From Parasphingopyxis lamellibrachiae (GTDB lineage: Bacteria > Pseudomonadota > Alphaproteobacteria > Sphingomonadales > Sphingomonadaceae), in contig NZ_QRDP01000004.1 of assembly GCF_003385775.1 (NCBI RefSeq), positions 496,001-560,000 of the forward strand: a stretch of 64,000 bases of DNA, read 5' to 3'. Every line of letters starts with the position of its first letter. Positions within the stretch are counted from its first letter, which is position 1. The notes under the pieces were generated by a model, which was not told where the DNA came from, searched no databases, and saw nothing but the letters and a program-made list of their open reading frames with translations. Below, piece after piece: positions 60,726 through 61,230 of this stretch. The position numbers and the translations under genes are program-made.

Positions 60726-60744
60726 AAGAACCGGAGGCCGCAAG

Positions 60745-61230
60745 ATGGCTGAAAAGGTCAATATACTTCAGGATTTGTTTCTCAATACACTGCGCAAAGA
60801 CAAAACGCCCGTCACGATGTTCCTCGTTAAGGGCGTGAAGCTGCAGGGCGTGATTACCTGGTTCGATAATTTCTCGGTCCTGCTGCGCCGCGATGGTCAG
60901 TCACAGCTAGTATATAAACACGCGATTTCGACGATCATGCCCGGCGGCCCCATGGACATGGAAGAAATTGAAGCTGCATTTGCCGAAGACAAGCGCGGGA
61001 AACTGCTGCAGGAAATCTTCCTCAATGCCGTGAAGCGCGAACGCGATCCGGTGACGATGTTTCTCGTCAATGGCGTAATGCTGCAGGGAGAAGTTGCGGC
61101 GTTCGATCTGTTCTGCCTGATGCTCAATCGGGATGGGCAGTCCCAGCTCGTCTACAAGCATGCGATCTCGACGATCCAGCCGGCCAACGCCATTGATCTT
61201 GGCAGCGCAAATCCTGACGCCCAGCCTTGA
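60745..61230 (+). CDS. hfq: RNA chaperone Hfq, tandem double-Sm form
   Basis: The 161-residue protein holds two complete Hfq (Sm) domains, residues 5-66 and 85-146, joined by an acidic linker. Repeat spacing is exactly 80 residues: Gln9/Gln89, Lys58-His59/Lys138-His139. Both halves keep the Sm1 and Sm2 motifs (YKHAIST twice). Half 1 keeps the distal/proximal residues Asp10 and Lys32; in half 2 these are Glu90 and Met112. The rim is basic in both (RK, then KR). Three chains would form a pseudo-hexamer. It follows ntrX and overlaps hflX, its usual partner. Confidence 0.97.

Follow-up and report, generated by a model that had tools for sequence, protein, structure and literature searches.

A regular division of the distal face and rim between the two Sm domains of the tandem Hfq of sphingomonads

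Hfq usually forms a ring of six identical subunits, which means that without engineering one face of the ring cannot be changed in only some of its six places. Non-identical Sm domains are combined in the eukaryotic hetero-oligomeric Sm and Lsm rings, which are built from separate chains and have seven members, whereas a tandem Hfq carries two domains in one chain. A double Hfq of sphingomonads is reportedly mentioned in the work of Sun et al. 2002 on Hfq distribution.

The closest described system is the tandem Hfq of Zymomonas mobilis (ZMO0347; PMC2877685), which, as described there, has the same architecture as the protein studied here. The 2010 publication reported the fusion, noted six other Sphingomonadales species and asked about a three-chain ring, while the words proximal, distal and K31 and the word stem asymmetr do not occur in its main text. 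The fusion is also represented by the NCBIfam annotation model NF010691 (PRK14091, RNA chaperone Hfq), which with its 176 positions is long enough for both halves, but whose description is silent on faces. The fusion, as the preliminary description of this DNA had supposed for sphingomonads, and the three-chain question are thus already known. The best solved relative by sequence is the Hfq of Caulobacter crescentus (PDB 6GWK, E 1.2e-31 to half 1), a hexamer whose acidic tail is described as packing on the rim (PMC6561178); it differs from the tandem form in having one Sm domain, with NGVKLQG as the aligned stretch. In the open-licence literature we found no report of the division at positions 28 and 31 described below, and the known fusion hides a very regular and apparently not previously described division of the distal face and the rim.

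The tandem hfq gene (60745..61230, forward strand, as all features given here) encodes 161 amino acids plus stop and lies in the 64,000 nucleotides analysed, referred to as the window. A GGAGG seven bases before the ATG (60733..60737) is a candidate ribosome-binding site, read from the sequence. Pfam PF17209 matches twice in one frame (E 1.4e-30 and 6.0e-26; whole-protein E 1.2e-58), reaching 195.1 bits in two stretches against a cut-off of 27; TIGR02383 scores 188.5 against 61.7, and NF010691 scores 290.4 bits against a cut-off of 270, aligning protein residues 1-156 with profile positions 16-171 of 176 and spanning both domains. The first Sm domain (residues 8-66, 60766..60942), for which a helix at residues 7-19 and five strands are predicted, keeps the basic residues of the rim and K31 and has a lysine at E. 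coli position 28. It is followed by a linker of 21 residues with a net charge of -3 (60943..61005) and a predicted short helix at residues 73-78, by the second Sm domain (residues 88-146, 61006..61182), in which N28 is kept and K31 is lost, and by a C-terminal tail of 15 residues with a net charge of -2 (61183..61227). The two domains are offset by exactly 80 residues (Gln9/Gln89, Tyr57/Tyr137), as the preliminary description had stated. A profile search of the genome gave no Hfq match beyond the tandem gene, which speaks against a division of its work with another Hfq, and no match to ProQ.

According to NCBIfam, the gene is flanked by NtrX upstream and HflX downstream. An HflX match lies near hfq in 82 of 83 loci, counting the window and single-domain loci (L144 is without one), which indicates an ordinary hfq locus and not a new gene. 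A search for promoters and terminators near the gene gave no match. A candidate TTG start of hflX overlaps the hfq stop codon (TTGA, 61227-61230), so that translational coupling would be possible. The C-terminal tail is weakly acidic in the window protein, and its charge is -3 or lower in 77 of 80 named relatives. Within half 2, a stretch of 16 residues (61129-61176) is identical to half 1, while many relatives differ here (such as RDGYVQLAYKHAVSTI); since several codons differ within this shared stretch, half 2 was not copied from half 1 in recent times.

In a sample of 197 genomes of the order, two Hfq matches were found in 131 of the 136 genomes of the window's family, which rules out a fusion peculiar to this strain; a single match was found in the five others (G045, G089, G099, G110 and G132). 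Among the remaining 61 genomes of the order, the second match of G001 is partial and lies on another contig, and G078 is without a match. We translated 65 two-match loci, including the window, and found both domains in one frame in all of them. The count of 65 tandem and 44 single-domain loci leaves out 14 duplicate or truncated loci (L001, L002, L093, L106 and L113-L122), and the 44 single-domain rows include identical ones (L006, L007). No tandem Hfq was found among 381 genomes of the rest of the class, where the two matches of G244 represent two contigs, and none in the 283 other genomes of the phylum sample among the matches listed, best first; seven of these 283 genomes have two Hfq matches, which are separate genes in each case.

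A set of named tandem loci, comprising the best 80 of 586 confirmed matches, includes Sphingomonas, Sphingobium, Sphingopyxis, Zymomonas, Qipengyuania and Aurantiacibacter. It shares at least three genomes (L151, L178, L201) with the 65 tandem loci, and the counts of the two sets are therefore not additive; the 52 sequences of the set A1 are those of the window and of 51 loci from the named set. The linker has 20-22 residues in 74 of the 80 named proteins, and the spacing from half to half is 79-81 residues in 53 of the 65 tandem proteins and 72-73 in the seven most diverged ones. Two records titled Bacillus sp. 2B10 (L153) and Actinobacteria bacterium 21-64-8 (L196) carry a sphingomonad-type tandem Hfq and are probably mislabelled or contaminated.

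In a tree of NtrX and HflX (42 rows, 827 columns), in which the outgroup rows are without NtrX and thus filled in only about half of the columns, the 25 tandem rows form one clade (bootstrap 100, SH-aLRT 99), and the five single-domain members of the family fall outside it. The same arrangement appears (SH-aLRT 93) in a larger tree of HflX, which includes 44 tandem rows. The simplest reading is that one fusion took place after early single-domain lineages had branched off, with no reversion to one domain in the sample. That the five single-domain members once had a second domain and lost it is not favoured, since they branch outside the tandem clade. A tree of the separate halves (60 columns), from which columns 28 and 31 and the seven most diverged proteins had been left out, unites half 2 in one clade (SH-aLRT 94), but not half 1 (3 changes).

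The halves differ most cleanly at a pair of residues that the preliminary description had missed, Lys29 and Asn109 of the window protein (codons 60829..60831 and 61069..61071). They correspond to position 28 of E. coli Hfq, the numbering used from here on, while Lys32 and Met112 (60838..60840 and 61078..61080) correspond to position 31. At position 28, half 1 has lysine and half 2 has asparagine in all of the 65 tandem proteins, with both AAT and AAC in use in half 2. The distal lysine at position 31 is kept in half 1 of the window, and among all half 1 rows the letter is K in 58 and R in 7; half 2 has M in 60, A in 3, S in 1 and L in 1, which leaves K or R in none of the 65. Taken together, positions 28 and 31 read KK (58) or KR (7) in half 1 and NM (60), NA (3), NS (1) or NL (1) in half 2, and their charges add up to +2 in each of the 65 chains, double what is usual for a single-domain Hfq. 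Of 61 columns, column 28 alone shows at least 90% fixation in both halves with a different letter in each. At columns 5, 28, 31 and 63, no chain repeats a letter between its halves, column 5 being variable. The named set gives the same picture: in 80 of 80 proteins, half 1 has a lysine codon at both positions and half 2 has an asparagine codon at 28 together with ATG at 31. The Z. mobilis locus (L174) has the pair KGVKLQG/NGVMLQG found in the window. Synonymous codons vary at position 28 in both halves, which fits selection on the residue. One locus, L162, deviates at the glycines adjoining the divided positions (KRVKLQC).

The seven most diverged tandem proteins also have K28 and R31 in half 1, together with N28 and no basic residue at 31 in half 2. 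This lineage (L105 and L107-L112, genus code g13), strongly diverged otherwise, has YKQ in place of YKH in half 1 of four of the seven proteins; its half 2 shows a variable Q33, F for Y55 and a first helix two residues shorter, and besides the half-to-half spacing of 72-73 residues it has a short C-terminal tail. The division at 28 and 31 coincides with the single origin of the fusion (tandem clade at 100/99). Since all tandem proteins stem from one fusion, 65 of 65 does not mean 65 independent events.

Judged from its sequences, single-domain Hfq has N28 and K31 usually, but not universally. The combination is present in all 44 high-scoring rows of the order and in all 60 taken from the class and phylum; for the most part, these 104 rows represent the best-scoring matches. 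A set of 38 weak or paralogous rows, of which 24 are loci with weak scores and 14 belong to the seven genomes with two genes, reads NK in 24, NR in 7, YK in 2, SQ in 2, NI in 1 and SK in 1, with one row truncated. The usual pair is thus replaced in 13 of the 37 weak-set rows showing both letters, three of which have a non-basic residue at 31. Lysine at 28 was found in none of the 141 single-domain rows long enough to cover this position (104 high-scoring and 37 of the 38 weak ones), and methionine at 31 in none of 142. Loss of K31 occurs also outside the tandem family, whereas gain of K28 was not seen outside it in the sampled rows. The three single-domain Hfq-like proteins without a basic residue at 31 (L279, L301 and L303 with SQ, NI and SQ) represent a natural control for a loss of K31 that is free of fusion. 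Two separate Hfq genes per genome are found at L278-L284 (with L271-L277) and L203, and also in G244 of the class; at position 31, R is present in five of the seven second copies in the two-gene genomes, while the other two have Q (together with S28) and K, respectively.

These counts bear on the main alternative to a functional division, namely that K31 of half 2 was lost soon after the fusion, that the gain of K28 in half 1 kept the distal charge, and that the pair was then locked without any new RNA preference. Such a frozen neutral exchange would account for the charge of +2 at 28 and 31 in 65 of 65 chains and requires only single-base steps, from AAC or AAT to AAA or AAG and from AAG to ATG; together with the presence of both changes in all 65 proteins, these steps place the gain of K28 and the loss of K31 most likely on the stem below the tandem clade. 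The non-basic residues at 31 in 3 of the 38 weak or paralogous rows indicate that K31 is not indispensable, which is a further point in favour of the neutral exchange. However, K28 is missing from all 141 single-domain rows with a letter there, and the division has been retained in the seven most diverged tandem proteins. We consider the neutral exchange a serious possibility, but not a probable one.

Read from the alignment, the proximal pore is the most equal face of the two halves, save for position 41 and the exchange D9E. Q8, K56 and H57 are present in 65, 65 and 61 of the 65 half 1 rows and in 65 of 65 half 2 rows each, and the window has all of them. Position 41, to which we ascribe a proximal role, is N in half 1 of 52 and L in half 2 of 47 of the 65 proteins, and at position 9 the second halves carry D in 45 cases, E in 19 and A in 1. 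The preliminary description had seen the main asymmetry on the proximal face, which the retention of Q8, K56 and H57 in all second halves speaks against. The five residues it named, Gln9, Asp10, Lys32, Glu90 and Met112, are all present, but Gln9 has Gln89 as its partner and is Q in both halves of all 65 proteins, and Asp10 and Glu90 form a proximal-face pair without being a conserved asymmetry. Unequal constraint at the named positions thus applies to Lys32, in part to Asp10 and not to Gln9. Its more general proposal, unequal halves with a conserved asymmetry at functional sites, is borne out by positions 28 and 31.

The base pockets are also largely retained. The A- and R-pocket positions 25, 26, 30, 32, 33, 52 and 61, the last of which presumably has a pocket role, keep the ancestral letter in 57-65 of the 65 proteins in each half, which would also be expected after a neutral exchange. 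In contrast to this expectation, the rim is altered in the same half that lost K31, which points to a division of labour. The ancestral letters N13, R16 and K19 are kept in 65, 65 and 58 of the first halves and in 9, 39 and 1 of the second, respectively, and at a one-residue insert half 2 has E instead of Arg in 51 of 65 proteins; the rim of half 2 is less worn in the window, with N94, K97, R98 and R100. On the aligned residues, the asymmetry therefore lies on the distal face (28, 31) and on the rim (13, 16, 17, 19 and the Arg insert). Half-specific letters are also found at positions 54 (V in 57 versus A in 33 or V in 29), 59 (I in 54 versus V in 44) and 63 (M in 56 versus Q in 61 of 65), which we assume to have an interface role.

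In E. coli, D9A is described as a proximal, R16A as a rim and Y25D and K31A as distal mutants (PMC12262471). Lys32 of the window matches this K31, whose amide is reported for the distal A site (PMC6422490), and does not belong to the proximal face, to which it had initially been assigned. As described in PMC6422490, the A pocket consists of Gln33, Gln52 and Leu32 with the Lys31 amide contacting phosphate, the R pocket is formed by Tyr25, Leu26', Ile30' and Leu32' of two neighbouring subunits, and six positively charged distal protuberances guide the RNA backbone; these would correspond to the turn bearing 28 and 31. An N pocket with Ile30 and the Asn28 backbone was proposed in PMC8121710. The reported contacts at 28 and 31 are made by the backbone (PMC8121710, PMC6422490), and side-chain changes may therefore matter less than we assume. 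The E. coli K31A mutation was reported to be mild in earlier reporter assays, while sRNA chimeras decreased down to 28% of the wild type (PMC12262471).

An AlphaFold2 model of the single chain (52 sequences) reached a pLDDT of 90.8 and a pTM of 0.85 and shows the helix and five-strand Sm fold in two copies. Lys29 and Asn109 are placed in the turn that connects strands one and two of their respective domains, and the strand that follows is predicted to begin with Lys32 and Met112, respectively. The best fold match in Foldseek is the Caulobacter Hfq 6GWK (78% identity over 64 columns); the listed 6gwk chains have an rmsd of 0.3-0.7 over 59-64 columns, and the displayed matches span one domain. 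Since a lower pTM would be expected from two free domains, the model implies a fixed arrangement, most simply that of neighbours in a ring, but the value of 0.85 may also reflect AlphaFold's memory of Hfq rings.

Based on the observed anatomy, the single origin in the trees, the reciprocal fixation at 28 and 31 and the constancy of charge, we favour the reading, with a probability of roughly 0.6, that charged and neutral distal posts alternate in a ring of three chains. The sole Hfq of the cell would be synthesized as a covalent dimer, and three chains would close into one ring with the two halves in alternation. The recognition residues of the proximal pore and the distal pockets are mostly kept in both halves, so that bases could still be read at all six places. 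The electrostatics, however, would alternate between half 1, with two lysines (28, 31) and an intact basic rim, and half 2, with a neutral distal turn (N28, M31) and a rim that is weakened in most species. Three doubly charged and three neutral distal posts would thus replace six singly charged ones at an unchanged total, and RNA would probably be gripped with three-fold symmetry. A more specific version, for which we see rather little probability, is that this pseudo-hexamer prefers a six-nucleotide register of A-R-N pairs to the usual three-nucleotide repeat and that only half of the rim promotes annealing. These readings and their alternatives overlap, and the probabilities attached to them do not sum to one.

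The same residues could also serve mainly as an assembly code, in which the differences at 28, 31 and 63 keep half 1 beside half 2 and block wrong ring registers, with RNA effects being secondary. Column 63 (M in 56 versus Q in 61 of 65), where no chain has the same letter twice, and an R pocket reported to be built by two neighbouring subunits (PMC6422490) would be in line with this. The halves are, however, already paired by their covalent linkage, and a register does not require the charge at 28 and 31 to be constant, which makes such a code rather unlikely. A different geometry would be two stacked rings made of six chains, with a half-1 hexamer tied to a half-2 hexamer; both rings would be uniform and there would be no alternation. 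By our estimate of its reach, the linker of 20-22 residues (74 of 80) could join two rings, and each half has retained both Q8 and K56 of the proximal face. A ring of half 2 only would, however, have little distal or rim charge, and the half-specific changes at 54, 59 and 63 would rather fit a mixed interface, as the chain-level pTM of 0.85 would fit docked neighbours. Stacked rings are therefore very unlikely in our view.

With alternating posts in a three-chain ring, the tandem family appears to have altered, by fusion, some of the six places of a face, and this has been kept in every tandem protein read. The family thereby offers a direct route to asking what number of charged posts or of rim patches is required by an Hfq ring, and would illustrate for bacteria the transition from Sm rings with identical subunits to mixed ones. 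It also allows a sharp prediction: the two residues concerned have known positions, and, according to the reports available, the loss of hfq has been studied in Z. mobilis and in Sphingopyxis strain TFA. The Z. mobilis hfq mutant is reported to grow more poorly with pretreatment inhibitors (PMC2877685), and in strain TFA the sRNA SuhB is described as repressing thnR in an Hfq-dependent manner (PMC6563040). From these reports we conclude that tandem Hfq is functional, the TFA protein being presumably of the tandem form by analogy with three other Sphingopyxis loci (L192-L194), which have the tandem form with the division at 28 and 31.
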